55,167 bases of DNA from Candidatus Cloacimonetes bacterium HGW-Cloacimonetes-2 (GCA_002842035.1 PHBP01000013.1:1-55167), one strand, 5' to 3'. Positions 6,913 to 36,399 are shown, counted from the first letter of the stretch. The notes: generated by a model from the sequence alone, not told the origin. Translations and numbers: made by a program.

Positions 6913-8034
6913 TTATTCTCCCTTGAGTTCAATCGGAGCGAGTGAACGCTCCAAGCCGTTGTATATCATAGCATCATTATTAAAGACAGCGGGCATTCTT
7001 TGTGCATAGATCACGATTGCCGCATCGCTTGGGATAGTACCGGGAATGTTTACTTGGAAGTTCACTGAATGAGTCAGATCAGCAGTTGCCAGGTCAATGG
7101 TCGTAGAGCCCAATACCACGTTTGTGCAAGGAGCACCCACAGAATTGGTCGTCGCAGAGACTTTCTCGATAATGTGTACCCTGAGCTTGAGATCGGTCTG
7201 ATCGATCGTACCTGCCCCGGGTGCCAACCTTACGGAACCACTCACACTTTGGCTGTTTACTTCAAATTGCAGGTCTCTAAGGTGCAATTGAGGCTGGTTT
7301 TCCAGCATATTCCTCACAAAGCTCAGATAGGCTTGCAGAGTCTCCGGATTGGCACTTAAGCGCTTTTCCATCCCCTGAAACACGGTTGCCGGCATCGGGC
7401 TCACACCGTAATAGACGAAAGTGCCCATATTGGTAGGAGCTTGCAGGGGATCCCCAATGTGATACTCGACATAGCTGAATTGAGAGGGATATTGAGCAGC
7501 CAAGCTGTGCATCACCTCTTCCACTGCCGGGCAATTTGGACAAGTCGTATAAGTAAAGCTCTCAAAGATAATCCGTTGCTTATTGCCTTGCTCCAGGCTG
7601 GCTATCTGATTGCCATAGAATTTCCAGGCTCCATCGACCTTGACGATCTTCTCGTCTGTAAAGGGGAACGAAGCCAGCAAACTGCTTTCCAGACCATCTC
7701 TCCAAATCCTGAGTTCCCAATTGACGCTCTCGTTGCTCGCATTATAGGATTCAAAAACCGGGTCCAGCCGATAGTTACCGCCTTCCCCACCATAAAGCTG
7801 ATCCAAAGTATGATAAAACTGCTCTCTGGCAGCTTTATCGACCGCATTATGCATATAGCCATCCTGATAGAAAGCCATTAGCTGAGTCAGATCGTTATGA
7901 TTTGCCATAGCTGTCTGAAGTGGTTCAAAGAGCTCCTGAACAAAGTCTATCTTGCCAAAATCGTGATCAAAGCGATCGCAGGATGCCAGCCCAATTGCCA
8001 GCAGCAATACCACCGCAAGTTTTATGAATCTCAT
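6913..8034 (-). CDS. Omp28-like lipoprotein with thioredoxin CPNC motif
   Basis: This 373-residue protein starts with MRFIKLAVVLLLAIGLASC, a lipobox with cysteine at residue 19. Residues of about 30-140 look like an NTF2-type domain (AMANHNDLTQLMAFYQDGY ... WKFYGNQI). A thioredoxin-like domain follows with FESFTYTTCPNCPAVEEVM and SPMPATVFQG, and a beta-rich C-terminus closes the protein. It shares the Omp28 architecture with the T9SS protein at 3583-4929 but is lipid-anchored instead of T9SS-sorted. Its start overlaps the dsbD stop as ATGA, so the two are translationally coupled. It is a likely DsbD client in the periplasm. Confidence 0.85.
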   Translation of the reverse strand: MRFIKLAVVLLLAIGLASCDRFDHDFGKIDFVQELFEPLQTAMANHNDLTQLMAFYQDGYMHNAVDKAAREQFYHTLDQLYGGEGGNYRLDPVFESYNASNESVNWELRIWRDGLESSLLASFPFTDEKIVKVDGAWKFYGNQIASLEQGNKQRIIFESFTYTTCPNCPAVEEVMHSLAAQYPSQFSYVEYHIGDPLQAPTNMGTFVYYGVSPMPATVFQGMEKRLSANPETLQAYLSFVRNMLENQPQLHLRDLQFEVNSQSVSGSVRLAPGAGTIDQTDLKLRVHIIEKVSATTNSVGAPCTNVVLGSTTIDLATADLTHSVNFQVNIPGTIPSDAAIVIYAQRMPAVFNNDAMIYNGLERSLAPIELKGE

Positions 8035-20028: not shown

Positions 20029-20058
20029 GGAGGCTTCTTAGAAGCCTCTTTTCTCTTT
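20029..20058 (+). terminator. Terminator after the DUF3795 gene
   Basis: GAGGCTTC (20030-20037) pairs with GAAGCCTC (20041-20048), followed by TTTTCTCTTT. The stop codon of the convergent minus-strand gene (20038-20040) lies in the loop. Confidence 0.85.
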
Positions 20059-23000: not shown

Positions 23001-23349
23001 AGACATAGCTCTGTATATCGACGTGATCCGGGCAGGCAATTTTGCAGGGAGCTTCGCAATCTGCATAGTGATTGGAGATTAGCAGTTCCAGTGCCATCTT
23101 GCGAGCTGAAGCGATATCATCACTCTCGGTCACTATCTCCATCCCAGGACTAACTACTGTGCCGCATGACGTTACAAAGCCTCTGCGCCCTTTTACTTCA
23201 ACCGCGCAAACCCAGCAAGAGCCATAGGGATTGAGCTCTTCATCGTGGCAGAGTGTAGGAATATGGAGTCCATTACGTTTTGCCAGTTCCAGGATAGTGA
23301 TTCCGGCTTCACAAGTGACTGTCTTTCCATTCAGTATAAGTTCTATCAT
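20038..23349 (-). CDS. NuoG/GltD-like iron-sulfur flavoprotein, large subunit of an Stn/Hyd-type oxidoreductase
   Basis: This 1103-residue protein has five recognisable parts in order. A [2Fe-2S] ferredoxin domain has Cys34, 45, 48 and 62. A GltD-type Fe-S segment has cysteines at 98/102/106 and 145/149/153. A GltD/NfnB-like flavoprotein has an FAD loop IAIVGAGPSG (about 194-203) and an NAD(P) loop VAIVGGGNTAID (about 324-335). Two [4Fe-4S] ferredoxin motifs lie at 624-634 and 667-677. A mopterin-oxidoreductase Fe4S4 domain has CGICGTGC (703-710). The remaining 390 residues are a shortened NuoG/Fdh-type domain. No [FeFe]-hydrogenase H-cluster motif is present. With the NuoF and NuoE subunits just upstream, this resembles Stn-type electron-bifurcating transhydrogenases. 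NADPH/ferredoxin/NADH coupling is inference. Confidence 0.85.
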   Translation of the reverse strand: MIELILNGKTVTCEAGITILELAKRNGLHIPTLCHDEELNPYGSCWVCAVEVKGRRGFVTSCGTVVSPGMEIVTESDDIASARKMALELLISNHYADCEAPCKIACPDHVDIQSYVSLIANGQYHEAVKVIKETLPLPLSIGRVCPAFCEKECRRQIVEDPIAIRQLKRYAADEDLNDYWSYIPAKEEDKGKRIAIVGAGPSGLTCGYYLSNQGYEVDIFEANPAAGGWLRYGIPEYRLPKEILDKEIDLLCANGMRIHYNKALGKDFTLKQLSADYDAVYLALGAQKAVPMPVKGSDLDGCYLGVDFLKAHALGNTPPLGKRVAIVGGGNTAIDCARTAIRLGARVSLIYRRTKEEMPAEPFEIDAAEHEGVEFHYLANPVEYLGENGKLKTVKIEKMQLGEPDKSGRRRPEPTGDYFEQDFDTIIAAISQVPDIDIFAEQDNYLGEAQLPLSRWSTAIVSEASMYCGTANVFAGGDFRRGAATAIEAIADGRLASEAITRYLNGEEIEKTSFRFDAHRGDSVKDISPDEYTIFPKKERREMPEIPLEEARSSFAEVETGFPEDSARMEAERCLECGCQVNETCFLREYCTDYGVDAKRFLGSINKHPIDYSHPFIIRDANKCINCGRCIRTCSEIQGAAVLGFIYRGFSSVVAPEFGESLTGTACESCGKCIAVCPVGALIERNQQYKLNPLPREHTIQSCGICGTGCVIETQSQSDQVALIQTPFKEEDRAFNGRNLCFKGRFGWQELFSPERLEQPRVKEDGIWREISWEEALSILKSKASAAETKSFEIAPTISLEEMLIMRTAATNSHSKLYADYNLQPLLPQILPMQADPTAYKRLDDCSEMVVVGKINHSLRTILRLKQRDGKRLILVKPPESGFNRFADEIVPSLDRLEPKNGQLFIYSVNELCQKVQYKLFSKALSVDPSGKNLFSSTEYPNYWGLLALEPSFNLPAKTDIAVAWGAMPMVEAAFKVSVCQFKTDDQELDLQLPAPSYLELDANILGNMALPGVWRNPARSMLINQLMRVFYELGWIPASTAEINYWNQMAIELMASLVNPTGIIDLNAIDPETLRTEPTMPIYPLIRRINALYETRKEKRGF

Positions 23350-23358
23350 CTGGCTCTC

Positions 23359-25128
23359 CTAACTCTTTGTGATGGCGTTGAATTTGCAAGCCTGATAGCA
23401 GGCTCCGCACTTGATACAGCGTTCCTGATCTATCAGATGCGGCTGTTTGACGCTTCCTGAAATGCAATTTACCGGGCATTTGCGGGCACAAGCCGTGCAG
23501 CCGATACATTTCTCTGGGATTATCTCATAGCGCAGCAAGTCGTTACAAACGCCTGCCGGGCATTTCTTGTCCACAATATGAGCAATATACTCATCCTTGA
23601 AATAGCGCAAGGTCGTGAGCACCGGATTGGGCGCAGTTTGTCCCAGTCCGCAGAGCGAGCCCTTGATGATATTGGTAGCCAGATCTTGCAGCTTATCAAT
23701 ATCTTCCGGCTCTCCTTTGCCCTGAGTAATCCTGGTCAAAATCTCCAGCATCCGCCTCGTTCCGATCCGGCAAAAAGTGCACTTTCCACAGGATTCATTC
23801 TGGGTAAAATTGAGAAAGAACCTCGCCACATCGACCATACAATTGCTCTCGTCCATCACCACCATACCGCCGGATCCCATTATGGCACCGGTCTTGGTGA
23901 TAGAATCGTAATCTACTATTGTATCAAGCAGATCCGCAGGTATGCACCCTCCTGATGGACCTCCCAATTGCACAGCTTTGAAGGCCTTTTCGGTTTTCAT
24001 ACCACCGCCCACTTTGTAGATCACATCTCTCACGGAGATACCCATCGGCACCTCAATCAGACCACCGCCCTTGATCTTGCCAGCCAGGGCAAAGACCTTG
24101 GTACCGGGAGATTTCTCTGTGCCGTATTTGCGAAATTCCGAGGCTCCATTGGTGATGATCCAGGTGATATTTGCCCAGGTTTCAACGTTGTTGATATTCG
24201 TAGGCTTGCCCCAAAGCCCTGATTCAGCCGGGAATGGCGGACGTATCGTAGGCATCCCGCGCTTGCCCTCAATTGATTGCATCAGAGCGGTTTCCTCACC
24301 GCAGACAAAGGCTCCGGCACCCTCTTTGATATGCAGTTCAAAGCTATATTCTGTGCCCAAAATGTTCTTTCCAAGCAGGTGTGCCGCTTCGGCATCGGCG
24401 ATTGCTTTTTGCAGGTGCTTGATCGCAAGGGGATACTCAGCACGGCAGTAGATATATCCCTCGTCCGCACCCATCGCAAAGGCACCGATGATCATTCCTT
24501 CGATCACAGTATGCGGATCGCCTTCCAGCACGCTGCGGTCCATAAAAGCACCCGGATCGCCCTCGTCGGCATTGCAGACCACATACTTCTTTGGCCCCGG
24601 GGCTTTTTGGGCAAAGCTCCACTTTAGCCCGGTCGAAAAACCTGCTCCTCCGCGACCGCGCAGCCCGGACTCTTTGATCGTCTCGACAATCGCTTCCGGC
24701 TGCATCGTAAGTGCTTTCTTGAGCGCTTCATAACCGCCTGTCGCGATATATTCATCCAAGGACTCGGGATCGATCTTGCCGCAATTGCGCAAAACAATGC
24801 GCACCTGATTGGCTATCAGATTGTTATGTATGGCGTCACTATTTTCCGCCAGGACTATTCTCTCGCTTAAAGCACTTCCTTCGATATAGGCTTCGAGCGC
24901 ATCGCAGATGGTCTCTGCCTTGGCTGCTCCGATCGTGAGAGAACCGTTTTGTCCCCCCGAAAACTCCACCAGGGGCTCTTCAAAACACATCCCGATGCAA
25001 GCCGTCTTTTGCAGCTTTACGGGCAGCGGATTAGCCGCCAGATACTCGCTCAATTTCCGATAAACGTCACCGGCTCCGGCTGCCATTCCGCAGGAAGCCA
25101 TACCTACTTTGACAATCACTTCACTCAT
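23359..25128 (-). CDS. NuoF/HydB-like NADH-binding subunit
   Basis: This 589-residue protein has an N-terminal thioredoxin-like [2Fe-2S] domain (MASCGMAAG ... TACIGMCFEEP). The NuoF core follows: GLRGRGGAGFSTGLKW (FMN/NADH site), VVCNADEGDPGAFMDR, EGAGAFVCGEETALM. The [4Fe-4S] motif is NESCGKCTFCRIGTRRM with SLCGLGQ downstream. The C-terminus has two ferredoxin motifs, CIGCTACARKCPVNC and CIKCGACYQACK. This is the HydB rather than complex I plan. It binds FMN and takes up or delivers NADH electrons. It lies 9 bp from the subunits on either side. Confidence 0.95.
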   Translation of the reverse strand: MSEVIVKVGMASCGMAAGAGDVYRKLSEYLAANPLPVKLQKTACIGMCFEEPLVEFSGGQNGSLTIGAAKAETICDALEAYIEGSALSERIVLAENSDAIHNNLIANQVRIVLRNCGKIDPESLDEYIATGGYEALKKALTMQPEAIVETIKESGLRGRGGAGFSTGLKWSFAQKAPGPKKYVVCNADEGDPGAFMDRSVLEGDPHTVIEGMIIGAFAMGADEGYIYCRAEYPLAIKHLQKAIADAEAAHLLGKNILGTEYSFELHIKEGAGAFVCGEETALMQSIEGKRGMPTIRPPFPAESGLWGKPTNINNVETWANITWIITNGASEFRKYGTEKSPGTKVFALAGKIKGGGLIEVPMGISVRDVIYKVGGGMKTEKAFKAVQLGGPSGGCIPADLLDTIVDYDSITKTGAIMGSGGMVVMDESNCMVDVARFFLNFTQNESCGKCTFCRIGTRRMLEILTRITQGKGEPEDIDKLQDLATNIIKGSLCGLGQTAPNPVLTTLRYFKDEYIAHIVDKKCPAGVCNDLLRYEIIPEKCIGCTACARKCPVNCISGSVKQPHLIDQERCIKCGACYQACKFNAITKS

Positions 25129-25137
25129 TCTAACTCC

Positions 25138-25602
25138 CTAAAATTCAAAACGTTCGAGTATCCCGGGGATAGCCTCGGGAGCCAGCTTACCAAAGGTCTG
25201 ATCGTCGATCATAATTACCGGAGCAAGGCTGCAACAGCCCAAACACGCCACTTCCATCATAGTAAAACGCATATCGGTGGTGGTTTCCTCTCCGGGAGCC
25301 AGCTTCAAAGCGTCACGCACCGCACTTGCTATGGCATTTGCGCCAGAAACGTGGCAGGCAGTGCCTTTGCAGACCCGGATGATGTGTTTGCCCTGAGGCA
25401 CCAGCTTGAACATTGAGTAGAAAGTTGCGACTCCAAAGATCTCAGCGGCAGGGATGCCAATCTGCTCTGCGACATAGCGCATCGTGTCTTTGGAGAGAAA
25501 GCCTTCGAGGGCTTGAACTTGTTGCAACAGAGGAATCAAGACGCCTTTCTTACCCCGATAGGCCGCGATCAGCTTATCGAGTTGAGCGATGTTTTCGGAC
25601 AT
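25138..25602 (-). CDS. NuoE/HydC-like [2Fe-2S] subunit
   Basis: This 154-residue protein has the NuoE helical bundle (GVLIPLLQQVQALEGFLSK, EIFGVATFYSMF) and a thioredoxin-like [2Fe-2S] site with RVCKGTACHVSG and EVACLGCCSLAP providing four cysteines. It is the first gene of the three-subunit operon (nuoE-nuoF-nuoG/gltD order). The ribosome site is AAGGAGCC before ATG. A candidate promoter and a hairpin with a T run lie in its leader. Confidence 0.95.
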   Translation of the reverse strand: MSENIAQLDKLIAAYRGKKGVLIPLLQQVQALEGFLSKDTMRYVAEQIGIPAAEIFGVATFYSMFKLVPQGKHIIRVCKGTACHVSGANAIASAVRDALKLAPGEETTTDMRFTMMEVACLGCCSLAPVIMIDDQTFGKLAPEAIPGILERFEF

Positions 25603-25644
25603 ACAGGCTCCTTATGGAATATATTTAGTAGTCTTCACACACAC

Positions 25645-25666
25645 AAAAAGAGCCTGAATCGGCTCT
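25645..25666 (-). terminator. Hairpin with T run in the nuoE leader
   Basis: On the minus strand AGAGCC-GATTCA-GGCTCT is followed by TTTTT. It is either the terminator of the unknown seven-gene cluster, whose last stop is at 25856, or an attenuator/5' stabiliser in the leader of the nuoE operon. Confidence 0.65.
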
Positions 25667-25673
25667 GTCTGCA

Positions 25674-25701
25674 CTTTTACGGAGGCATAGCTAAATGTCA
25701 A
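25674..25701 (-). promoter_or_regulatory. Candidate promoter of the nuoE operon
   Basis: On the minus strand TTGACA (25701-25696), a 16-bp spacer and TAAAAG (25679-25674). The -35 box is perfect; the -10 box is weak. A start near 25667 would place the hairpin at the very 5' end of the mRNA. Confidence 0.35.
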
Positions 25702-25729
25702 TCAAAAAAAGCCATTGATTCCAGCCTTT

Positions 25730-25850
25730 CCCGCCCTCTTTCAATGAAACAATGCTAAGACCTTGCAAGACAGCTATATCATACTTGCTCATGCAGGATT
25801 CAAGCAGGATAGAAGCAGGGTAGAAGCAGGAAGCCAAGCAGCAAGAATGG
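25730..25850 (+). repeat. 99-bp direct repeat, left copy, with family 2 tail
   Basis: 25730-25828 is identical to 34295-34393 except for one base (C at 25790, T at 34355). The two copies are direct and bracket the seven-gene unknown cluster, 8466 bp apart. The end contains GGATTCAAGCAGG, the tail shared with family 2 copies A and C, followed by near-repeats of TAGAAGCAGG. Confidence 0.95.
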
Positions 25851-25855
25851 ACAAC

Positions 25856-26716
25856 CTAAAGACCATATGACAAAGTGAAGATCATCCAGACAACGACTAA
25901 GCCAAAGCCAATCAAAGCCCGAATACCTGCTCCATTTGCCATCTTGGGGCGAGAATCACGCCAGGCTATATAGAGGACCAGTCCGATAAGCGGAACAAAG
26001 AAGCATATCACTCCCAGAAAACAACCCATGCTTTCTTCAGATGAATTGGGCTGGTCTGTCCGGGGATTATGGTGTTGATTAAAGGAAGCTGGAGCGGGAG
26101 GAATCCTATCGTACTGATTGGGTTGCAACACCTTGGGACTAGCTGCGCCAGCCCGCAGCATCAGCTTGATCTCCGGGAATTCCACATAGTCTTCCGCAAT
26201 CTTGCCCTCATTGTCCCGGATATTGGGGTCTGCCCCCATATCGGTGAGCTTTTTGATGCGGTTGATTGCCAATGCACCATTTTCGGGATAGTTGTCCACC
26301 CACTTTGCCAATGCCATCAGGATAGTAAAGCCCAGATCGCCGAACTTGGTGTTGAAGTTATTGATTCTGGCCAGCAAGTTATAGAAGATATGATCGCTCT
26401 TGCCCAGGAGCACGAACGTGTTCGCGATAGATTCCTCGTCTGCACCCAGGCTCAGAAAGTAGTCCACGACTTCCTTGTTGTCCAAGTGCACTGCCAATTC
26501 GAAAGGCGACCAGTCGTCTTCGTTCCCGTCTAAAACGTAAGCACCGTTTTCGACCAATAAGCGTATAACCGAGACGTTTCCCGCTTCGACTGCCTTGAGC
26601 AGCAGCTCTGTGCCCAGGTCTCCATCCAGTGCTATTTGATTGTTCTTTAGTATCTTAAAGACCAGTGACGAGTTCTGCTCTTCAATCGCAGCCAGTAATT
26701 GCTCTTCCGGATTCAT
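25856..26716 (-). CDS. Ankyrin-repeat membrane protein, last gene of the SPFH cluster
   Basis: This 286-residue protein has degenerate ankyrin repeats over residues of about 1-190 (GTELLLKAVEAGNVSVIRLL, SPFELAVHLDNKEVVDYFLS, IKKLTDMGADPNIRDNEGK), then a Pro/Asn/Gln-rich linker. The C-terminal tail has two membrane helices (MGCFLGVICFFVPLIGLVLYI and IGFGLVVVWMIFTLSYGL) around a short loop. Ankyrin repeats mediate protein contacts; facing the cytoplasm they could tether partners to the membrane. It is the last gene of a seven-gene minus-strand cluster. Function unknown. Confidence 0.75.
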   Translation of the reverse strand: MNPEEQLLAAIEEQNSSLVFKILKNNQIALDGDLGTELLLKAVEAGNVSVIRLLVENGAYVLDGNEDDWSPFELAVHLDNKEVVDYFLSLGADEESIANTFVLLGKSDHIFYNLLARINNFNTKFGDLGFTILMALAKWVDNYPENGALAINRIKKLTDMGADPNIRDNEGKIAEDYVEFPEIKLMLRAGAASPKVLQPNQYDRIPPAPASFNQHHNPRTDQPNSSEESMGCFLGVICFFVPLIGLVLYIAWRDSRPKMANGAGIRALIGFGLVVVWMIFTLSYGL

Positions 26717-26760
26717 AATTTCTCCTCAATGTGGGTTTTCTACGGTATTATGCCCATTGC

Positions 26761-26789
26761 GGGACCGGGGCTATAGCCGGGCCGGTCCC
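26761..26789 (-). other. GC-rich nested hairpin inside the SPFH cluster
   Basis: GGGACCGG (26761-26768) pairs with CCGGTCCC (26782-26789), and the loop contains the palindrome GGCTATAGCC. It lies in the 102-bp gap between the bactofilin-like and ankyrin genes, the only sizeable gap in the cluster. No T run follows on either strand, so it is more likely an RNA processing or expression-step element than a terminator. Confidence 0.6.
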
Positions 26790-26818
26790 GGCAAAAGGTT
26801 TACATTACAATGCTTTGC

Positions 26819-27787
26819 TTATTGAAAACTGCCTTTGATCTCCTCTAGGCTGAAGCTACCGCTCATAGTGGTGATCTGGATTCTGCCATCCAGGATATCA
26901 AAGAAGAACTCATAGAGGTTTTCCGGCTTGAGGGCTGCATTACCGCCTGAACCTAGCTCGTAGGTCTTGAGAAGCTGTCCGCCCAGACTTGCCGCATTGA
27001 GCAGGAAGTGGTTTTCCAGTTTGTCCAGATCGACCAAATCCGCTGCCAGGATCTTTCCGGCTACCGAGAAGCTATTGACCAAATGAGTATTCATATTGTC
27101 GTCCACCAAGACGGTTCTCTGACCTTCGTTTGCCACATCCAGCTTTATTTTACCGGTGTTTTCCTTTTCGGGATTCTTCTTGTAAAGCGAGCCCAAATCT
27201 GCCAAGGACAGGTTATAAAACTCCGTCCCGGGGATCAATGAGGGTGGCTCCACCGAGAAAGCGGATGGGTATAGCAGATAGTTCACGTGCCCGGCATTGA
27301 TCACAGGGCTGTTGAAGGTTCCCGCGATACATCCTGTAAGATTGAGCGACTTGGAAGCAAAAACACCCCCGATTACCACACAATGCTCGAGCTGTATCTC
27401 CTCTGCAAAGATACTTCCTGCTACATAGGCATTTCTCAATTTTACGGTTTTGGCGTTGATGTCTGCGCCAAAAATCAGCTTGACTCCGGGAGCGAGGCAT
27501 ATGATGGATTGTGCGCAACCGACAGCTTTGTAGAATTTTATCGTAGCTTTGGCATCGCTCAAAAGGTGTAAATCCTGATGAGCATAGACCGCTCCGTGAA
27601 ACTCTGCCGGTCCACTCTTGATCTCCAGTTTATTGGCAAAGACTGCGCCTTCAATGACGACATTCTCCTGGATCGAGATGTTTCTGCTAAGCTCCTTGGT
27701 GACTTGGGGAAGGATGCTGGATTTGACCAGATTGTCTTGCAGATTTAAGCTGTCTGTACCTATTCTGATTTCTTTTAGTTCTTTCAT
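26819..27787 (-). CDS. Bactofilin-like polymer-forming beta-helix protein
   Basis: This 322-residue protein, behind TAGGAGGATCAA, has repeated short turns with the spacing of a right-handed beta-helix: NVVIEGAVFANKLEIKSG, EFHGAVYAHQDLHL, VKLIFGADINAKTVKL, AYVAGSIFAEEIQLEHC, VIGGVFASKSLNL. The VIEGxVxA pattern and the layered order are like bactofilins, which polymerise into cytoskeletal sheets, though the protein is longer than classical bactofilins. A C-terminal globular part of about 110 residues follows. It could build a scaffold for the cluster's assembly. The bactofilin link is by pattern only. Confidence 0.65.
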   Translation of the reverse strand: MKELKEIRIGTDSLNLQDNLVKSSILPQVTKELSRNISIQENVVIEGAVFANKLEIKSGPAEFHGAVYAHQDLHLLSDAKATIKFYKAVGCAQSIICLAPGVKLIFGADINAKTVKLRNAYVAGSIFAEEIQLEHCVVIGGVFASKSLNLTGCIAGTFNSPVINAGHVNYLLYPSAFSVEPPSLIPGTEFYNLSLADLGSLYKKNPEKENTGKIKLDVANEGQRTVLVDDNMNTHLVNSFSVAGKILAADLVDLDKLENHFLLNAASLGGQLLKTYELGSGGNAALKPENLYEFFFDILDGRIQITTMSGSFSLEEIKGSFQ

Positions 27788-27799
27788 TTGATCCTCCTA

Positions 27800-28855
27800 T
27801 TAGTTCGATATGGGTACTGCTGCCGGTGATGCTTGCCATAGTGAGAACATCATATTCTTGATTCGGTTGATGTCCTCTCCGGTTCTACTGCTATAAGTAT
27901 CATTGACGAGCTTGAGATACTCCTGCTCGATCAGCTTGTGATCTGGTCCTTTGTTCTGCCCCCATTTCATAGATTTGGTCTTGTCCACAATTGCCTTGTG
28001 CACGCGCTCCTTTAGCTTCGGAGCAGCGTCGTCTGGGGTCAGGTATTCGGTTTCAGCAGTAGTACTTTGTAGCTGGTCTTTCTCTACAATTATCACCGGA
28101 AGATAAAGGTCTGTCTGTTCAGACAGCTTCTGGTTTTCCAGCACGTCCACGAGTTTTTGGCTTAGCTTTCTGTCTTCCATTATATGGGAATGAGCAGCAC
28201 CGAGCAGGGTGCCGACCTTGTTTCGTATCACAGATGATGCGATCATCATCTGTGTGTTGCCGATCTCACCTGCCTCAATCGCATAGGTAGTCGCTTGAGA
28301 GAGACTGCTTTGAAAGAGCAGCTTGTGCATAATCTCTCCTGAGAGATTGAAGCTGTTGCTATCCAAAGCCTGGATACGGCGTTGCAGTTCTTCATCGAGA
28401 TTGCGAAACAAGTCCCTGTAGTGGCCTGCCAGCCGGGAATAGTCGCGCTCCATTACCTGCAGGATGTTTTCTGCGGCTTTCTTTTGCTCGATCATCAGGG
28501 CAAATTTTGAATTTACCTGATTGAGCAAGTCCGCAATCTGCTGGGTAATTTCAGAGCTTACAAGGCTGAAAAAGCCATCAGTGACGTGTTTTCCGACCTC
28601 GTGGGAGGAATCCTTAATGGATTGCACCTGTGCGGCTTTCATAGCTATCACGGCACCTTTGAGCATACCTATCTGCTCGTCGCAAGCACCAACGCTGTGG
28701 TCAAAGGGATTGGTATCGACCAGCACATCAACATCAATGGGCTCCGTGTGGGTGTAAGAAATCGTATGAGAGCCACCGTTTTGAGATGCGGGATAGCTCG
28801 CATTGACAGAGCCCCGGATAGTCAGAGTGAAGTGGTAATTCTGACGGTAACTCAT
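27800..28855 (-). CDS. Helical protein of unknown function, paralogue of the next upstream gene
   Basis: This 351-residue protein has a beta-rich N-terminal 60 residues (NYHFTLTIRGSVNASYPASQ) and a long helical body. A core segment, MERDYSRLAGHYRDLFRNLD with LQRRIQALD after it, matches MERDYHMICGRYKKLFRSLD with LQQRVFELD in the protein encoded at 28852-29784. The two are paralogues placed in tandem with an ATGA overlap. No enzyme motif, signal peptide or membrane helix is visible. I do not recognise the family. Confidence 0.7.
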   Translation of the reverse strand: MSYRQNYHFTLTIRGSVNASYPASQNGGSHTISYTHTEPIDVDVLVDTNPFDHSVGACDEQIGMLKGAVIAMKAAQVQSIKDSSHEVGKHVTDGFFSLVSSEITQQIADLLNQVNSKFALMIEQKKAAENILQVMERDYSRLAGHYRDLFRNLDEELQRRIQALDSNSFNLSGEIMHKLLFQSSLSQATTYAIEAGEIGNTQMMIASSVIRNKVGTLLGAAHSHIMEDRKLSQKLVDVLENQKLSEQTDLYLPVIIVEKDQLQSTTAETEYLTPDDAAPKLKERVHKAIVDKTKSMKWGQNKGPDHKLIEQEYLKLVNDTYSSRTGEDINRIKNMMFSLWQASPAAVPISN

Positions 28856-29784
28856 ATATCTTTCCTAACCGGACTGTGCCAGTTGTTTGAGTTTGCCAGC
28901 TTCATCATCTCGGCTTGGATTCTGGGTGCCAGATTGTTTTGGAATCCCATAGCCTCCAGCTCTCTGAGGATCTTGGCTTTCTCATCGTGAGTGATGTTTT
29001 GCCATTTCCAGGTATCGACCAGCCCCGTAACAGCCTGTTGTATTTTACTTGCCGCCGAGGAGAGATTGCCGCTAAAGTGAGGAGTGTTTACCTCAGTATA
29101 GCTGCCAAAGCCGCTCACAGCCTCAAGCTCTGAGTAAAGCACGGGGATCGATACACATTGGGTATCCCGGATACTCTCTTTATTCAAGCAGTAATTCAGC
29201 TTGGTGTTGATATTGGCTTGCTCTCGGAGATTAGCACTGATCGAGCCGATTAAGGTATCCGTGTTGGTGCGAACTTTTGCAGTAAGGGCAAACTGGCCCA
29301 GAGGAACAATCTCGCCTTGGTTCATTATAAAGCCGGAACCGCTGTTACGAAGCCTCCCAATCAGATTTGGGTAGTGCTTGGTTGCTAGGTCAGAAGGCAT
29401 CTTGTCCAGCTCAAAGACTCTCTGTTGCAGAGATTTATCCAGCGATCTAAAGAGCTTTTTGTACCTACCGCAGATCATATGATAATCACGCTCCATCTGC
29501 CGTTTGATCGCATCCAGAGCTATCGCCAGCTGCCTCAGAGTCATCAGCTTGGCTGTTGCGGCACTCTGTAGATGAGCAGCTTTTTGGCTGATCTGCGAGC
29601 GTATCAGCAGGAAGAAGCCGTTATCAAGCTTGTTGCAGACCTGCCTGGCAGCTTCCTCTTCCGCCGCTACAACAGCAGTCTCCATTGCCACAACTGCTTT
29701 TGATACACCGTTTACTCCGTTTGACACAACCGTGAGGCTCTGTGCCATTGGGTGAGTATCGACTGTAAAGCTGTAGTTAGCCAC
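28852..29784 (-). CDS. Helical protein of unknown function, paralogue of the following gene
   Basis: This 310-residue protein starts with GTG at 29784 behind AAGGAGG; the G is shared with the TAG stop of the upstream gene. It has a short beta-like N-terminus (NYSFTVDTHPMAQSLTVV), then mostly amphipathic helices, with the core MERDYHMICGRYKKLFRSLD shared with the downstream paralogue. It contains no recognised catalytic motif. Tight coupling on both sides (1 bp and ATGA) implies a fixed stoichiometry with its neighbours. Confidence 0.7.
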   Translation of the reverse strand: MANYSFTVDTHPMAQSLTVVSNGVNGVSKAVVAMETAVVAAEEEAARQVCNKLDNGFFLLIRSQISQKAAHLQSAATAKLMTLRQLAIALDAIKRQMERDYHMICGRYKKLFRSLDKSLQQRVFELDKMPSDLATKHYPNLIGRLRNSGSGFIMNQGEIVPLGQFALTAKVRTNTDTLIGSISANLREQANINTKLNYCLNKESIRDTQCVSIPVLYSELEAVSGFGSYTEVNTPHFSGNLSSAASKIQQAVTGLVDTWKWQNITHDEKAKILRELEAMGFQNNLAPRIQAEMMKLANSNNWHSPVRKDI

Positions 29785-32108
29785 TAATCCTCCTTCGCAA
29801 TCTCTGCAACAACTCCAGCCTTCTCAAGCTCGTTGAAGAGCTCGATAGCATCTTCCAAAGACCATCCAAAGACCAGGTTTACAGGGGTTGTGGAGCATAG
29901 CTCACGTGCTTCATCCACAGATATCTCGAGTAGCTCGCTGATTGTGAAGAGAGCAGTCTCGGCTTTATCTCCCAGATTGTTAAGTACTACCGCGTAAGAA
30001 GCTTGTCCAGCAGGGAGTGGCTTAGCGGGAGGAGCAGCTTTCTGAGGAGAAGTCTGAGGAGCTGGAGCAGGTCCAGGGGAGCTTGGCTCGCTGTCAGGAG
30101 GAGCAGGAGGCTCGGGTGTCTGTACCACGTCAGGACTCTCAATAGCTTGAGGTGGGATGGTAAGATCCCCTGAAGGTTTCGCCACCTCTTCCTCTACTAT
30201 GTCATCATTATCCAAGCTCTTCAGTGCTTCATCCGCCATCTGGATGAGGTTCATAGTAAAGTCTTCATAGGCCTTGGGCTCGATCTTGGGCTCCGGAGGA
30301 ATATCAGAAAGAGTAGCAAAGTGAGCACCTGCTCCGATCAAGCCCTTACGTCTGGGCTCAATATCCTGGAGATTGTCACTGGCAAGTGCCATTTGATGCA
30401 CTTCTTTATCTCTCAGAGAGGCTTCAAAGTACTCAATAAAGCCAAACTTCTCTGCTTGTGCATCGATATCTTCCTTGAGCCTATCCATATAATCCATAAA
30501 GTCCTCTTGTTGCTGCATAAACTGATTACCCTGCAGCTCAAAAGTAGCCAGAGTTTCTGCCTGATTACTCTTTGCCTGGACCTTGGAAGAATCCAGCTTG
30601 CCGGATTCACCCATCTGCTTTTCTGTTTCTTGCAAAGCTTTCAGAGTATTGAGCGATGAAGAATACTCCGCGAAAGTCTCTCTCATTCTATTGATCAGGT
30701 CGTTGCTCTCGGCCCGGTTTCGCCCATAAAAGTCTTCAGTATCCCGATGCCATTGATTCAGATAATCCAGCTTTTGATCTTTGATATGGTTATAGATCTT
30801 AAGCCGCTCTATTCGAGTCTCTTCCATCAGGTTTGAGATCACCGGCATCAGCACTTCTTCGTGAATCTGATGCACACCAAAGGGGAAAGAAGAACGTGAG
30901 TTATCATCAGCTACCCAGTTCTGAGAGAACAGGTCATAGCGCATCCGCGAGCTGGGATTCATCACAAAAGGCGTGTAATCGCCCACTGAATCCTGAAAGT
31001 TAAAATCTGTAGTCCTGATCCGCTCGATCTCGTCAGCTTCCAAAAGCGGTGAATAGTGATTGAAAGACGTTCTAAGCGTATTCATAAAGATTGCGTTGGA
31101 GTACTGCAAGACCTTGTTTGAACAGCTTACTTTCATCTGCGTTAGGATCTGTGCTGATTCAGCCAGTTGCGCCATCAGACCTTTAAAGAACTCGATGAAT
31201 TCCCCGGAGCTATCGTCCAGCCCTTTCTTCATATCGTTCAGCTTTTCAAAAGCCTCGATATTACTGTTATGTGCCTGCAGGTCAAAGATCTGGCAGACTG
31301 GAGCATTACCTGTATCGGTAGTGCCGTGCTTCTTGAGAAAAGCCATCTCTGGGCTCTCCGGCGTGATGATCGGCAGGCTCACGGAGACCCGATTAACATC
31401 TCTAAGCATAAAGCCCAGATTCCGCATATGCCTGTCAATTGCCCCCATAAAGTCATAAAGCGGAGCTTCCTGCATCGAGGTGGAGTATTCAGAAGTATCT
31501 ACCATCTCCACATCCTCGGATGATTCCACCAAAGGCACATTCTCGATCAAGCTCTTGAGCTCGACAACGTTTTCCTTGATAGATTCCGGCTGTTTCAGCG
31601 AGGATAGCGTAAAGCCCAGATCAGGCACCGACCCCGTAAAATCCAGCACAAAGTTCTTATCTTCAAACGGAATATGAGATGCCACAGGGACATAAACCAC
31701 TCCCAGCTTGTTGACCTTGTAATCTCTGCGGATATTGGAGTGTGATCTCTTCAGCTCGTTGATCTGCTGTTTCTTCTGGTTTGTCGCGTTGTTTGCCTCG
31801 TCTATGAAACGTGCCAATTGTGGCTTTAGCGAGTTACTCACCCAGATCAGGATACCAATCCCGACCAGCACAATACAGGTCAGATAGCCGATCAGAGTCA
31901 TCGTCTTGATCTTTTGTTCCTGCCGGGCAATCTCAGCCGGATAATCAGTCTCCATCGATCTCAGCTCATTCTCTGCCTTTTGGATCAGACTTTCCAGTTC
32001 CATTTCCTCGTGAACGATCTTCTCCGCAGCTTGTTTGTAATAGTTAAATAAGACTTTAGCTTGGTCTTGATACAGGTTCTTTGAATCCCTAAAGATTAAT
32101 CCACTCAT
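29784..32108 (-). CDS. Coiled-coil membrane protein with L7/L12-like C-terminal domain
   Basis: This 774-residue protein has an N-terminal coiled coil (about 20-70), one membrane helix (TLIGYLTCIVLVGIGILIWV, about 73-93), then long coiled-coil and mixed regions. A Pro/Ala-rich linker (about 660-700) leads to a C-terminal domain of about 70 residues: YAVVLNNLGDKAETALFTIS and ISVDEARELCSTTPVNLVFG. The alternation VVL..AG.., LGL.EAK.LV...P, LE.AG....V is that of the ribosomal L7/L12 C-terminal fold, which in ribosomes binds GTPases. Here it might bind a GTPase or another partner at the membrane. Four bases separate it from the upstream gene. Function unknown. Confidence 0.72.
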   Translation of the reverse strand: MSGLIFRDSKNLYQDQAKVLFNYYKQAAEKIVHEEMELESLIQKAENELRSMETDYPAEIARQEQKIKTMTLIGYLTCIVLVGIGILIWVSNSLKPQLARFIDEANNATNQKKQQINELKRSHSNIRRDYKVNKLGVVYVPVASHIPFEDKNFVLDFTGSVPDLGFTLSSLKQPESIKENVVELKSLIENVPLVESSEDVEMVDTSEYSTSMQEAPLYDFMGAIDRHMRNLGFMLRDVNRVSVSLPIITPESPEMAFLKKHGTTDTGNAPVCQIFDLQAHNSNIEAFEKLNDMKKGLDDSSGEFIEFFKGLMAQLAESAQILTQMKVSCSNKVLQYSNAIFMNTLRTSFNHYSPLLEADEIERIRTTDFNFQDSVGDYTPFVMNPSSRMRYDLFSQNWVADDNSRSSFPFGVHQIHEEVLMPVISNLMEETRIERLKIYNHIKDQKLDYLNQWHRDTEDFYGRNRAESNDLINRMRETFAEYSSSLNTLKALQETEKQMGESGKLDSSKVQAKSNQAETLATFELQGNQFMQQQEDFMDYMDRLKEDIDAQAEKFGFIEYFEASLRDKEVHQMALASDNLQDIEPRRKGLIGAGAHFATLSDIPPEPKIEPKAYEDFTMNLIQMADEALKSLDNDDIVEEEVAKPSGDLTIPPQAIESPDVVQTPEPPAPPDSEPSSPGPAPAPQTSPQKAAPPAKPLPAGQASYAVVLNNLGDKAETALFTISELLEISVDEARELCSTTPVNLVFGWSLEDAIELFNELEKAGVVAEIAKED

Positions 32109-32112
32109 TTCA

Positions 32113-32850
32113 TTACTCCATTCCGTTACTTGCGCGATACAGCTTTCTCTGTGTGATCAGCAGACTCAGACCTTCCACGATCCCGCGGACAGTCTCATCA
32201 TTTGACCTACCACCCATACTAATTGCCGGAGAGATCAAGCTTCCGATCAGCCTGATTTGATCCAGTATCTTCTTTTCCAGTTCCTGTGCCTGAGGATCTG
32301 CACACGGGCTGATGAATCTCAGCTCCTCGGCAAGTGACTTTATCTTTTCCATAATAGCTTCTCTTAGAGGATCATCAGCGGGTATAGTCGCCAAGAGCTT
32401 GATTTCACTGCGAGCAGCCACCAGAAATAGCTCCTGATTACGCTCCGCCTCCTCGATTGTTCCCACGTGCACCGAACTCTTTGCTGCCAAGGTAAAGCCG
32501 ATCAGAGAGGCAAAACCAATCACAACGTGCCCCAGCAATTGCACCTTCATCGAGAGATGCCAGCGGTATCCCAGGAACATCCAAACGATAAAAATGATGC
32601 TTGCACCTGTGCAGACCACCATCCTGATCCCAATCGCCGGGATTCTCTGGTTAAACCCGTCAGGAGGAGGAAAGAGCAGATCTGTACTAAAGAAATTCAG
32701 GCCAAAGACAAAGGAGATCACCGCCCAATTCATCCAGGCAATACTGCTCCGATCCGATGGCGTCAGCACCAGGAATCCCGCCAGTATGATGATCTCTCCC
32801 AAGATTCCCAAGCCCAGATAGAGCGTGGAGATTTCTCTGTTTTTATCCAT
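32113..32850 (-). CDS. Four-TM membrane protein of unknown function
   Basis: The start is ATG at 32850, one base after the stop of the SPFH gene; a longer frame to 32946 overlaps that gene's zinc-ribbon coding and is not preferred. The 245-residue product has four membrane helices: TLYLGLGILGEIIILAGFLV, IAWMNWAVISFVFGLNFF, MVVCTGASIIFIVWMFLGY and GHVVIGFASLIGFTLAA. A cytoplasmic helical tail of about 110 residues ends in RSNDETVRGIVEGLSLLI. Its place directly behind the SPFH gene is reminiscent of the membrane partners YdjG/YdjH of the B. subtilis SPFH protein YdjI, though no sequence similarity can be shown here. Confidence 0.7.
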   Translation of the reverse strand: MDKNREISTLYLGLGILGEIIILAGFLVLTPSDRSSIAWMNWAVISFVFGLNFFSTDLLFPPPDGFNQRIPAIGIRMVVCTGASIIFIVWMFLGYRWHLSMKVQLLGHVVIGFASLIGFTLAAKSSVHVGTIEEAERNQELFLVAARSEIKLLATIPADDPLREAIMEKIKSLAEELRFISPCADPQAQELEKKILDQIRLIGSLISPAISMGGRSNDETVRGIVEGLSLLITQRKLYRASNGME

Positions 32851-32851
32851 A

Positions 32852-34024
32852 CTACACCAGCTTTTTCCCGCAGGAACTACAGAATTTAGACTTCCCGTCC
32901 CAAGCCGCACCGCAATTGCTGCAGGCATTACCTGCAGATTCTGCATTCTCGGTCATAAGCGGAGTGCCGCAGGCCACGCAACGCTTTGCATTCTCAGCAT
33001 TATCTGCTCCGCATTTGGGACACGCCAGATAAGGATCGCCGCAGAAAGGGCAGAATCTGGAAGTCACAGGGATTTTCTTGGAGCAATTGGAACAGAATAC
33101 TTCTTTGCGCTGGTGGCTCGGAGCAGCAACAGGAGCTGCCGGAGCAGCGGGTTGAGCACCCTGCCCATTGGGAGTCATCATCATTTCTCCCATCTTCCCG
33201 CCTCCGCTCAATCCGCCGGTCATCAACACCGCGCCCAGCAAACCAACATCCCCGCCTTTGGACAGGGCCTCTTTGGCTACATTGAACGACTGATCCTGCT
33301 GCCAGGTATATCCGGCAATATTCTGAGCGCTCTTTTGGCTCATTGCTTTGAGGATTTGCTGCCCATCAACTGTGCTTTGATCCAGATCGATCGACGTAAT
33401 GTAAAATCCGGTCAGCTTCATCCCAAACTGCTCCCAAAACTCCTCCATACTTACTCTCAGGAAGTTCGAAAGCTGGTCCAGATGAGCGCTTACAGTCTTG
33501 ATCCCAATGCCGTTGTTTTGGATATAAGAAAGGATCAGGCTCTTGGTCTTGGATTCCATCGCTCCCTGAAACTGATTGGTAAGCTGCCTGGAATCAAATT
33601 CCTGGATAGTGCCCACCAGTTTGACCAGAAACATCTCCGCGTTATCAACTCTCAAGCCATATCGGCCTTGTGAGAAAAGCGGCACCATAGCCTGATAATC
33701 AGGATCGTGATACCTAAAGGTGGAAGTCTGCCAATCGATATTCAGAGGCATTACCTTATTCACAAACCAGACCTCGGCAAAGAAGGGATTCTTACCACCA
33801 AACGGAATGCCGAAAAAATCTCTCAGAATAGGGAGATTCTCCGTGTTCAGGGTGTATTTTCCCGGTCCAAACTTGCCAATAATCCTGCCTTTGGAAAACA
33901 GGATGGCTTCTTGGGATTCGTAAACGATGAGTTGGGTGAACGTGCTTAGGTTTTGATGCGGAAATCTCCATGCAAAGACATTATTAGTCCCTGGAGCCCA
34001 AGAGACTACATCAATCAACGCCAT
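32852..34024 (-). CDS. SPFH-domain protein with three C-terminal zinc ribbons (YdjI-like)
   Basis: This 390-residue protein starts behind GGAGG and heads the cluster. It has no membrane helix. Residues of about 1-270 are an SPFH/band-7-type domain of the subgroup annotated as virion core protein-like or YdjI (LIVYESQEAILFSKGRIIG, FGPGKYTLNTENLPIL). A glycine-rich stretch and an Ala/Pro linker follow. Three zinc ribbons end the protein: CSNCSKKIPVTSRFCPFCG, CPKCGADNAENAKRCVACG and CSNCGAAWDGKSKFCSSCG. YdjI of B. subtilis is reported to work with membrane proteins and PspA in envelope stress. No PspA gene is in this cluster. Confidence 0.88.
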   Translation of the reverse strand: MALIDVVSWAPGTNNVFAWRFPHQNLSTFTQLIVYESQEAILFSKGRIIGKFGPGKYTLNTENLPILRDFFGIPFGGKNPFFAEVWFVNKVMPLNIDWQTSTFRYHDPDYQAMVPLFSQGRYGLRVDNAEMFLVKLVGTIQEFDSRQLTNQFQGAMESKTKSLILSYIQNNGIGIKTVSAHLDQLSNFLRVSMEEFWEQFGMKLTGFYITSIDLDQSTVDGQQILKAMSQKSAQNIAGYTWQQDQSFNVAKEALSKGGDVGLLGAVLMTGGLSGGGKMGEMMMTPNGQGAQPAAPAAPVAAPSHQRKEVFCSNCSKKIPVTSRFCPFCGDPYLACPKCGADNAENAKRCVACGTPLMTENAESAGNACSNCGAAWDGKSKFCSSCGKKLV

Positions 34025-34294
34025 AAAGCACCTCCTTTATATATTTTTACTATGTCAGCGCTATTCGGCTTTTGTTTTTGTAGTACACTCTCTGAATCTA
34101 TGCGCTCAGAAAGCACTGCCTGAATTTATCTTTGGCTGCTAGTATAGCCTACTACCAGTCTGTATATCTAATCTACTATCAATGCGTTGTGATTCATTCT
34201 TGGGATATCTTTGAACCAGAAAGCAGTTTCGTGACTTTATTCAAAACTGTCAATAAGAAATATAAAACGAATTTTTTCGCTTGGATCCCTGCCT
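34025..34294. other. Upstream region of the SPFH cluster, no gene
   Basis: This A+T-rich stretch of about 270 bp holds a minus-strand TTGACA at 34253-34248 facing the cluster, 224 bp from its first ATG. No clear -10 box or RNA gene is seen. Confidence 0.45.
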
Positions 34295-34393
34295 CCCGCC
34301 CTCTTTCAATGAAACAATGCTAAGACCTTGCAAGACAGCTATATCATACTTGCTTATGCAGGATTCAAGCAGGATAGAAGCAGGGTAGAAGCA
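34295..34393 (+). repeat. 99-bp direct repeat, right copy
   Basis: 98 of 99 positions equal 25730-25828 in the same orientation. It contains CCCGCCCTCTTTCAATGAAA and ends in GGATTCAAGCAGGATAGAAG-type near-repeats. It lies upstream of the SPFH cluster, while the left copy is downstream of it. Confidence 0.95.
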
Positions 34394-34585
34394 TCCTATC
34401 AAGGAGAAAGCAAGCTGGCAATGAATCAACAATCTGCAGCGGGAGCTGTGCTGATAATGCCTATGAACTGGCGCTGCGTATTCGATGGAAAATTATCCGC
34501 GACAAAAAGTACTTAGACTGATGGTATATACTTGACTAATTTAACAAAAACAGACAGAGAGGGTACTGAGATGCCTGTAGTGAAT

Positions 34586-34644
34586 CCGGGCAGAGGGTGC
34601 ATCCTTACACCCGGCGCAAAATGGGCTCCCAAAAGGAGTTTACG
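34586..34644 (+). promoter_or_regulatory. Structured leader of the beta-helix gene
   Basis: GGGTG (34595-34599) pairs with CACCC (34608-34612), and CTCC (34626-34629) can pair with the ribosome-site GGAG (34635-34638) over a CAAAA loop, hiding it. The GGCGCAAA between them faintly recalls c-di-GMP (GEMM) aptamers, but the full core is not present. Weak evidence for translational control. Confidence 0.25.
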
Positions 34645-36399
34645 ATGAAGATACGTTTGTTCTTGTTGGTTTGTCTGTTTGCTCTGACAAGCATTTATGC
34701 TTGGGGCTTGGCAGGAGTCTATACCATCAATCCAATGTTGCCGCCAACGGCGAGTAATTTCCAAAGTTTCACTGCCGCGATCAATGCTCTGAACTCAAGC
34801 TATCCTACTGCTCCGGTTACCTTTAACGTCAAGGCTGGCGCATACTTTTATGAGGCCTGCCCAACTATTTATGCTGCCTCATTTCCTCCGCTGGCGGTGG
34901 TCTTTCAGAAAGATGATCCTAACATGCAAAATGCCGGGTTGATTTCACTTTCCACTGCGGCAGGATTTAAGCTGGTCGGCGGCGACTATTTCACCTTTGA
35001 CGGGATAGACGTGTTGGCTACGACCAGTAACTGTCCGTATGGCTTTTTTCTGGATGGAACCGGTGGAAACGGAGCGCATCACAACACTATCAAAAACTGT
35101 AGGATAGTGATGAATCAGTCATTTGATAACACGATCGGAATCTATCAGCTCTGCGTTTCTGCTGGCTATATGGAGGCTTCAAACTCGAATAATACCTATG
35201 AGAATGTCTCGATTGAGAATAGCTTTAGCGGTATCGTTCTGGATCATCAGAATGCCAGTTCCGGTTTCTACGATCAGAACTGCGTAATCAAAAACTGCAC
35301 AATTGGAGCTCCTTCGATGGTTCTGATGACAGGAGCAAGCACCCGTTATGGTATCTATACCCGGGGGCAAAACTCCTTGATCATCGAAAACAACGAAATC
35401 AGAAACATTGTCTCTCAGAATGCGGAAAGCTATGGTATACATCTATATACAACCAGAGGTGAAAGCCATATCAGGGGCAACAAGATCCACGGGATTCACA
35501 GCGCCAACGCTACCAGCTTGAAAGCTCAGTACGGGATCAAAGCTGATCTGGCCGTCGAGTCAAACGTCCAGAAGTCAGTAAAAATCTACAATAATATGAT
35601 CTGGGACATCTATAATCCCTTTGGCAGCAGTAGCAGCCTGGGAGTATGCGGGATCTACCTGCAAGGGGTGTATAATCTAAACAAGTACTATGTGGATTTC
35701 AATACCATCTGCCTGCAGACTGCTCCGGCCAGCGTAACTCACGGGCTCTTCTTTTATAATGCCGGCGGACAGCACTTTGTAAGAAACAACATCATCCAGG
35801 TGATGAGCCCCGGAGCGACCAGAGCTCACGTATGTATCCGCTATTACGACAACCCGATGGGAGCCGCGGGGTCTGTTGCAGACTACAATGTGCTCTATTC
35901 GGGCGGACTCAATAATTGCAATGCCGTTCACGTCAATATGGGAAATGACTTTTATGCAGATGTTACAAGCTGGTATGCAGCCAGTGGATTGGATCAACAC
36001 AGCTATTCGAGCGATCCCCTGCTGATCTCCGTCAGTGATCCTCATCTGCAGAGCGGAACAAGCTCTGATGCTCTGGATGGTGGAAGCTACTTTGCAGGAG
36101 CCTTGAACTGGGTAAGCACGGACATCGATGGCAATAACAGAAATGCTACTAACCCCGATATTGGTGCGGATGAGCTGTATGTGGCAACCCCTCCGGAAGT
36201 TCCTACGGCTCAGATCAGCCAGGCTGACGGCTCAGTCTTTATTAGCTGGGATGCCGTCCAGGGAGCCACATCTTACCGGATAGAAGCATCTGACGAGCCC
36301 GCTGCGGGCTTCTCCCTACTGGGGACGAGCACCACTACAAACTATACGGATACAATAACTACAAAGAAGTTCTACCGGGTGATAGCTGTAGCCGAATAG
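34645..36399 (+). CDS. Secreted parallel beta-helix protein
   Basis: The start is ATG at 34645 behind GGAG; the 584-residue product has a signal peptide (MKIRLFLLVCLFALTSIYA). Residues of about 30-480 hold pectate-lyase-type beta-helix turns (HHNTIKNCRIVMNQS, NCVIKNCTIG, NSLIIENNEIRNI, SHIRGNKIHGI, VKIYNNMIWDIYNP, YVDFNTICLQT, FVRNNIIQV). The typical closing pattern is PDIGADEL. A C-terminal FN3-like domain ends the protein without a sorting domain, so the export route beyond the periplasm is unclear. Such proteins often act on or bind polysaccharide. Its stop is 2 bp from the convergent GGDEF gene. Confidence 0.8.
   Translation: MKIRLFLLVCLFALTSIYAWGLAGVYTINPMLPPTASNFQSFTAAINALNSSYPTAPVTFNVKAGAYFYEACPTIYAASFPPLAVVFQKDDPNMQNAGLISLSTAAGFKLVGGDYFTFDGIDVLATTSNCPYGFFLDGTGGNGAHHNTIKNCRIVMNQSFDNTIGIYQLCVSAGYMEASNSNNTYENVSIENSFSGIVLDHQNASSGFYDQNCVIKNCTIGAPSMVLMTGASTRYGIYTRGQNSLIIENNEIRNIVSQNAESYGIHLYTTRGESHIRGNKIHGIHSANATSLKAQYGIKADLAVESNVQKSVKIYNNMIWDIYNPFGSSSSLGVCGIYLQGVYNLNKYYVDFNTICLQTAPASVTHGLFFYNAGGQHFVRNNIIQVMSPGATRAHVCIRYYDNPMGAAGSVADYNVLYSGGLNNCNAVHVNMGNDFYADVTSWYAASGLDQHSYSSDPLLISVSDPHLQSGTSSDALDGGSYFAGALNWVSTDIDGNNRNATNPDIGADELYVATPPEVPTAQISQADGSVFISWDAVQGATSYRIEASDEPAAGFSLLGTSTTTNYTDTITTKKFYRVIAVAE

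Follow-up and report, generated by a model that had tools for sequence, protein, structure and literature searches.

PspA is a protein with the ESCRT-III fold. In Bacillus subtilis, YdjI depends on YdjG/H for its placement at the membrane and recruits PspA, and loss of YdjG/H mislocalises peptidoglycan synthesis (PMC8581546). In a survey of PSP (phage shock protein) partners, band-7/zinc-ribbon proteins are presented as chaperone-like factors that assist assembly at the membrane, and band-7, zinc-ribbon and chaperone-like partners are reported to recur around PspA (PMC11237479). Here we describe a cluster of seven minus-strand open reading frames (ORFs) in Candidatus Cloacimonetes bacterium HGW-Cloacimonetes-2, at 25856-34024 of the 55,167-nt sequence PHBP01000013.1 (GCA_002842035.1), the whole of which is called the window. 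All features given below lie on its minus strand. The nearest studied protein to the SPFH protein encoded in this cluster is B. subtilis YdjI. It is well supported that six of the seven genes, encoding SPFH, 4TM, P774, P310, P351 and BACT, form a module at 26819-34024. The module has one part in common with the YdjI system yet is a different system, because PspA was not detectable in the genomes tested.

A search of 393 Bacteroidales genomes with P774 gave full-length relatives in seven (42-46% identity). All seven loci, found by P774 alone, carry SPFH, 4TM, P774, P310, P351 and BACT on one strand and in the same order. A family-level search around one carrier was positive in 17 of 300 genomes, 16 of them new, and these together with the first seven are the 23 related loci referred to below. 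The run P774-P310-P351-BACT is intact in 14 of the 16 new loci, the remaining two being cut by contig ends, and SPFH-4TM is present in 7 of the 14. With the window counted, the four-gene core was found in 22/22 uncut loci and the six-gene form in 15/22. P310 recurs in every related locus and P351 in every locus uncut by a contig end. Since six of the seven genes recur in other genomes with identical order and strand, the clustering is far beyond chance. When the six genes are compared by their matrices of pairwise identity, the correlations are 0.76-0.99, the pattern expected of genes that are passed on and transferred as a set. A preliminary description, made from the sequence of the window alone, had proposed an undescribed seven-gene cluster around the SPFH protein and had suggested a check of co-occurrence across genomes. 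That check came out strongly in favour of six of the seven genes. For the seventh, an ankyrin-repeat gene, none of the 23 related loci holds a relative (0/23), and it is thus not a member of the module, which rules out the seven genes as a single unit. What stands is a membrane-linked, SPFH-containing conserved gene set. The word undescribed needs qualifying: SPFH/zinc-ribbon proteins beside membrane partners are known (B. subtilis YdjI, YdjG/H, PspA), but PspA was not detected here.

The placing of the SPFH protein at the centre of the cluster did not survive these comparisons. What never varies is the core P774-P310-P351-BACT: an entire clade that lacks SPFH-4TM keeps these four genes, which rules out SPFH as the module centre. 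In the P774 tree the tetrad-only loci form one clade (support 1.0) nested among six-gene loci, except for L127, which is N-terminally truncated. The six-gene form looks ancestral, because the deepest branches, the window and L126, both carry all six genes, and SPFH-4TM has been lost in this one well-supported clade. The length of P774 past its conserved core follows the same division, with 0-4 residues in the tetrad clade versus 36-162 in 14 of 15 six-gene loci.

The SPFH protein (32852-34024; 390 amino acids, no transmembrane (TM) segment) matches Pfam Band_7_1 at 5.7e-33 (114.8 bits against a cut-off of 24), the SPFH domain lying at ~33374-33970. Three C-terminal zinc ribbons follow at ~32861-33097 (DZR, 2.2e-16; six CxxC). 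Its gene is preceded by a strong Shine-Dalgarno sequence, AAAGGAGGTG. The adjoining 4TM protein (32113-32850; 245 amino acids) has four hydrophobic segments by hydropathy and then a helical tail; its start was set at the ATG at 32850, as an upstream ATG would overlap the SPFH gene. We propose that the helical tail is cytoplasmic and that 4TM is the partner of SPFH. The SPFH protein is 53-56% identical to the full-length SPFH proteins of six Bacteroidales modules and 39% identical to the SPFH fragment in L081. For 4TM the identities to Bacteroidales members are 20-27% (pairwise matrix), and no Pfam family was matched above noise. The 4TM gene keeps its position after SPFH, and the protein its architecture, in all six-gene loci and also in L055 and L066 outside the module.

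The module and the B. subtilis pspA-ydjGHI locus are alike in that the SPFH protein, like YdjI, is a TM-less Band_7_1 protein that contains a low-complexity stretch and ends in zinc ribbons, and in that its gene adjoins those of integral membrane proteins and has helical protein partners. They differ in three respects. A single 4TM protein stands in place of YdjG (zinc ribbon plus TM) and YdjH (TPM domain), the module adds the four invariant genes P774, P310, P351 and BACT, and there is no PspA gene in the module or detected in the tested carriers. PspA/IM30 (PF04012) was found in 0 of 10 genomes, namely that of the window, seven carriers and two with SPFH only; the same search was positive in 9 of 14 controls. 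No module protein matched PF04012. The operons of band-7 proteins with PspA partners (CesT/Tir-PspA, DUF4178, DUF350, polyamine genes, SHOCT; PMC11237479) likewise encode, in a setting of sub-membrane assembly, an SPFH protein whose C-terminal domains can be swapped, but the other genes of the module are absent there, and the module is without PspA, CesT/Tir, AAA+ and polyamine enzymes. A related SPFH gene does lie beside DUF4178, DUF350 and polyamine genes on a Novosphingobium plasmid (L059). In the open-licence papers searched, YdjI was found together with SPFH only in the YdjI study itself and in an ESCRT survey.

These comparisons bear on the possibility that the locus is a divergent PSP-type system, in which P774 or P310/P351 would be unrecognised ESCRT-III/PspA relatives that remodel the membrane and are recruited by SPFH-4TM as YdjI/YdjGH recruit PspA. 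The partner logic equals that of ydjFGHI, the module proteins are long and helical with a fitting size, and PspA/CHMP rods appear among the insignificant Foldseek matches of the P774 model (probability 0.5-0.6). The E-values of those matches are 1.7, however, and on a model with a predicted local distance difference test score (pLDDT) of 40 they are meaningless; no Foldseek match had an E-value below 0.3. Furthermore, 0 of 16 P351/P310 members and 0 of 8 P774 members match PF04012, even at E 0.05, and 34-sequence profiles found no relative in the PDB. We therefore regard this explanation as unlikely.

The SPFH-4TM pair also occurs apart from the module, in both Bacteroidota and Bacillota: one example comes from a Bacteroides record (L055), another from a genome of the same order (L066) and a third from a Butyrivibrio plasmid (L054). 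SPFH in these non-module pairs ends in a GYF_2-like, SHOCT-like or zinc-ribbon tail, the first two labels being our own reading of the sequence and not library matches. The small C-terminal domains on SPFH are exchangeable. On the 20-kb plasmid pNP21 of Butyrivibrio fibrisolvens (L054, 6658-8649) the 4TM gene that comes after the SPFH/zinc-ribbon gene is broken into two ORFs (7883-8212 and 8212-8649), of which the annotation covers just the latter; a frameshift or sequencing error is the likely cause. The closest SPFH protein of the genome scan (38%), in Parabacteroides PM6-13 (L003, 9764-14142), is encoded with a TM/zinc gene and adjoins a tyrosine integrase and a transposase, and this branch is therefore probably carried by a mobile element; a second SPFH gene (L065) is present in that genome. 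On a Vibrio coralliilyticus plasmid (L056, 2688-10124) a related SPFH gene, whose product has a GYF_2-like tail, faces TIR-domain, TRAFs-binding-domain and WD-repeat/TM genes on the opposite strand, a possible conflict-related context for the SPFH family.

P774 (29784-32108) has an N-terminal coiled-coil, a single TM at residues ~72-90 (~31830-31898), a long helical body and a variable C-terminal tail. The window copy is 38-41% identical to Bacteroidales P774 proteins in the pairwise matrix, and no Pfam or PDB relative was found for the body. The last ~70 residues of the window P774 (residues 704-770; 29799-29999) align with the C-terminal domain (CTD) of ribosomal L7/L12, here fused to a membrane coiled-coil protein that is not ribosomal. 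The match to the Pfam L7/L12 CTD (PF00542) is sub-threshold (0.017), but residues ~690-770 match rplL genes of many genomes in the phylum of the window (best 2.9e-6), and a phmmer search matched solved bL12 in the PDB at 1.6e-4. The single-sequence model of P774 gave strand-helix-helix-strand-helix over the tail at pLDDT 60-70. Secondary structure from such low-confidence models is indicative only, and the L7/L12-tail part of P774 is all that was used. PPR matches of the tail in the PDB search were discounted as designed helical repeats. On these alignments the L7/L12-like tail is real. At 28% identity to the organism's own rplL, it is not a recent copy of that gene. The L7/L12-like tail is restricted to the window copy, which rules it out as a trait of the P774 family. 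The other P774s bear different tails, among them an acidic stretch, zinc ribbons (L079) and a LEM/HeH-like helical motif (L077, L078, L080, L114 and L115), so that the tail reads as an exchangeable small C-terminal domain. The LEM/HeH-like motif, YTEEEL..DDESLQQILDELGLEYDADEFDREQAIDDIL, is present once at the C-terminus in these loci and twice in L077; a LEM-like domain on a bacterial membrane protein is unusual.

P310 (28852-29784), all-helical and soluble, and P351 (27800-28855), which has an extra N-terminal beta segment of ~45 amino acids, are paralogues with 28% identity over 268 amino acids (3e-26). Their identities to Bacteroidales members are 28-36% and 24-29%, respectively (pairwise matrix). 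P310 and P351 form two groups in the tree, with all P351s including that of the window together (support 0.966), and this grouping across hosts indicates that the duplication predates the spread of the module. No curated family was matched by P774, P310/P351 or 4TM, and SPFH, P310, P351 and BACT are without TM. In these respects the preliminary description was accurate: it had listed seven packed minus-strand genes with one 102-bp gap, an SPFH protein with three zinc ribbons, a four-TM protein, a coiled-coil TM protein with an L7/L12-like tail, two paralogous helical proteins and an ankyrin protein with two TM helices, and had seen no enzyme domain. Searches of Pfam, NCBIfam, PADLOC and PHROGs likewise found no enzyme domain in the module proteins, within the sensitivity of these libraries.

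Bactofilins (PF04519) are cytoskeletal proteins characterised by polymerisation without nucleotide. BACT (26819-27787; 322 amino acids) had been called a bactofilin-like beta-helix, a name for which there is a weak match below the Pfam cut-off (0.0023; 18.6 bits versus a curated cut-off of 27.9). The protein has the repeated short-strand pattern, and a sub-threshold Bactofilin match was obtained in 16 of 20 BACT members (best 1.1e-4). It differs in length, however, for the bactofilins of the same order, at 120-145 amino acids, are less than half its size. A profile of BACT aligned to four of these at an hhalign E-value of 0.058 over 27 columns (probability 0.9%), inside the range of shuffled controls. 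BACT is 47-54% identical to the Bacteroidales copies and is second only to SPFH in conservation. No mention of a bactofilin together with SPFH was found in the open-licence papers searched. Instead of a stress system, the genes could form a module for cell shape or envelope morphogenesis, in which a bactofilin filament is the base and SPFH-4TM brings in cell-wall enzymes. This would agree with the YdjG/H phenotype in peptidoglycan synthesis (PMC8581546) and with two bactofilin papers, in which bactofilins mostly serve morphogenesis and bind membrane (PMC12448750, PMC10945521). We consider it distinctly unlikely: the bactofilin identity is sub-threshold, no peptidase or penicillin-binding-protein gene lies in, or consistently near, the module, and a shape determinant would not usually be found as a patchily distributed accessory.

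That distribution is narrow. When P774 without its tail was searched against the window's phylum, the remaining 124 genomes gave no relative (1/125, its own genome), which rules out a module native to the phylum. For the SPFH protein, a single distant match (28%) was obtained in 60 close relatives. Broad Bacteroidota samples (395 genomes) gave no module beyond the centre genome itself, and presence throughout the Bacteroidota is rejected on these samples; one of these searches used a two-row profile and is misleading if taken alone. The flanks of the first seven loci and of the window are mutually unrelated, save for a few low-identity transporter matches. Horizontal spread of the module is suggested by its patchiness, by flanks that differ from locus to locus and by its presence in just one genome of the window's phylum. 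No match to P774, P351 or BACT was obtained in the plasmids and viral contigs searched, nor to P774 or BACT in the phages searched, which argues against the module as phage or plasmid cargo. A conflict, defence or toxin-antitoxin-like island, answering phage or plasmids by membrane effects, would fit the patchy distribution and horizontal spread, and related SPFH genes do lie near the integrase of L003 and the TIR-domain gene of L056. The six proteins, however, gave no PADLOC match, PHROGs matched the zinc ribbons only, no enzyme or toxin domain is present, the flanks share no defence genes, and the module was not found in the plasmids, phages and viral contigs searched. Compared with the hidden ESCRT-III and morphogenesis explanations, this one is the most disfavoured by the data, and we hold it to be very unlikely. 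In L079, L081 and L126 the module is directly adjoined by genes for single-TM zinc-ribbon proteins whose C-terminal domains are SH3-like, MORN or of other kinds; these may be accessory partners.

The reading that we prefer, with slightly less than even confidence, is a PspA-independent, membrane-anchored scaffold at the cytoplasmic face of the inner membrane, horizontally spread, with the SPFH platform as an optional upper layer. The cytoplasmic side is suggested by the zinc ribbons, a usual feature of cytoplasmic proteins. Past the topology of the module proteins we infer the steps that follow, and with them the labels 'scaffold' and 'stress assembly'. P774, through its one TM, would be the membrane anchor of the assembly and would present its long coiled-coil body, on which P310 and P351 would form an obligate helical pair, and BACT may polymerise or cap as a scaffold. 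SPFH would form an oligomeric platform held to the membrane by 4TM, as YdjI is by YdjG/H, and would dock on the core via the variable tail of P774. The P774/P310/P351/BACT core would thus take the place held by PspA in the Bacillus system, and the whole assembly may organise or protect a membrane patch under envelope stress. The shortening of P774 in the tetrad clade is a hint, and not proof, that its tail may be the docking place of SPFH-4TM.

Several points weigh against this proposal. That SPFH-4TM and the P774 tail were lost together is essentially a single evolutionary event, and docking is therefore only hinted at. In L120 SPFH-4TM is present and the P774 tail is absent (in-frame stop), and in L127, where the N-terminus is lost, the tail is present without SPFH-4TM. 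The AlphaFold2 models are of low confidence (P351, pLDDT 44 from two rows; P774, pLDDT 40 from one row), so the oligomers and contacts are inferred. The bactofilin assignment falls below the curated cut-off, and its profile-profile comparison was not significant. A stress function is suggested by likeness to YdjI alone, and matches to promoter consensus in the window were weak and no more frequent than in shuffles, with no regulator or stress promoter identified.

No curated family name exists for 4TM, P774 or the P310/P351 pair, four of the six genes, and yet the gene order is kept across two phyla, which points to a real machine that has been overlooked. More tentatively, and as a doubtful extension of the scaffold, the module could represent a new class of membrane-associated cytoskeletal machine, made of P774, the P310/P351 pair and an elongated bactofilin-like polymer, PspA-free and able to plug into an SPFH-4TM platform by a swappable adaptor tail (L7/L12, zinc-ribbon, LEM-like or acidic). 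The swaps of the P774 C-terminal domain, lost with SPFH-4TM in one clade, point to a putative docking site. The module also indicates that YdjI-type SPFH/zinc-ribbon platforms can serve a partner other than PspA, which raises the question of whether SPFH platforms recruit an ESCRT-III-like remodeller only or are general docking hubs.

The ankyrin-repeat protein encoded at 25856-26716 is a non-member neighbour with ankyrin repeats (1.2e-9, Pfam) and two C-terminal TM helices by hydropathy. It matches PADLOC PDC-M72A over residues 7-95, which are the ankyrin repeats. The gaps along the seven-gene block are 1, 4, -1, -4, 12 and 102 bp, with the 4TM start at 32850. The last of these, between BACT and the ankyrin gene (26717-26818, 102 nt), holds a G+C-rich hairpin that folds at -30.1 kcal/mol (z -1.4 versus shuffles, not significant), and an Rfam search of 25000-35500 gave no match.

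The seven genes are flanked by two copies of a dispersed repeat, upstream at 34294-34410 and downstream at 25729-25845. The repeat is ~117 bp long, mostly intergenic, and present in at least 40 copies in the 2.5-Mb genome (copies L004-L023); it is not in Rfam and not stably folded, and is possibly a non-autonomous mobile repeat. The two flanking copies are 99% identical over 100 bp, compared with at most 93% for the other 38 or more, and this suggests that the block including the ankyrin gene was inserted or duplicated recently at such a repeat. No clean empty insertion site was found among the relatives examined. Downstream of the block a NuoE/F-type gene pair (window 20038-25602; L095-L100) is conserved in the family, but no two of the relatives examined agree in the genes that lie upstream of NuoE, as if the site just beyond that gene were a variable one.

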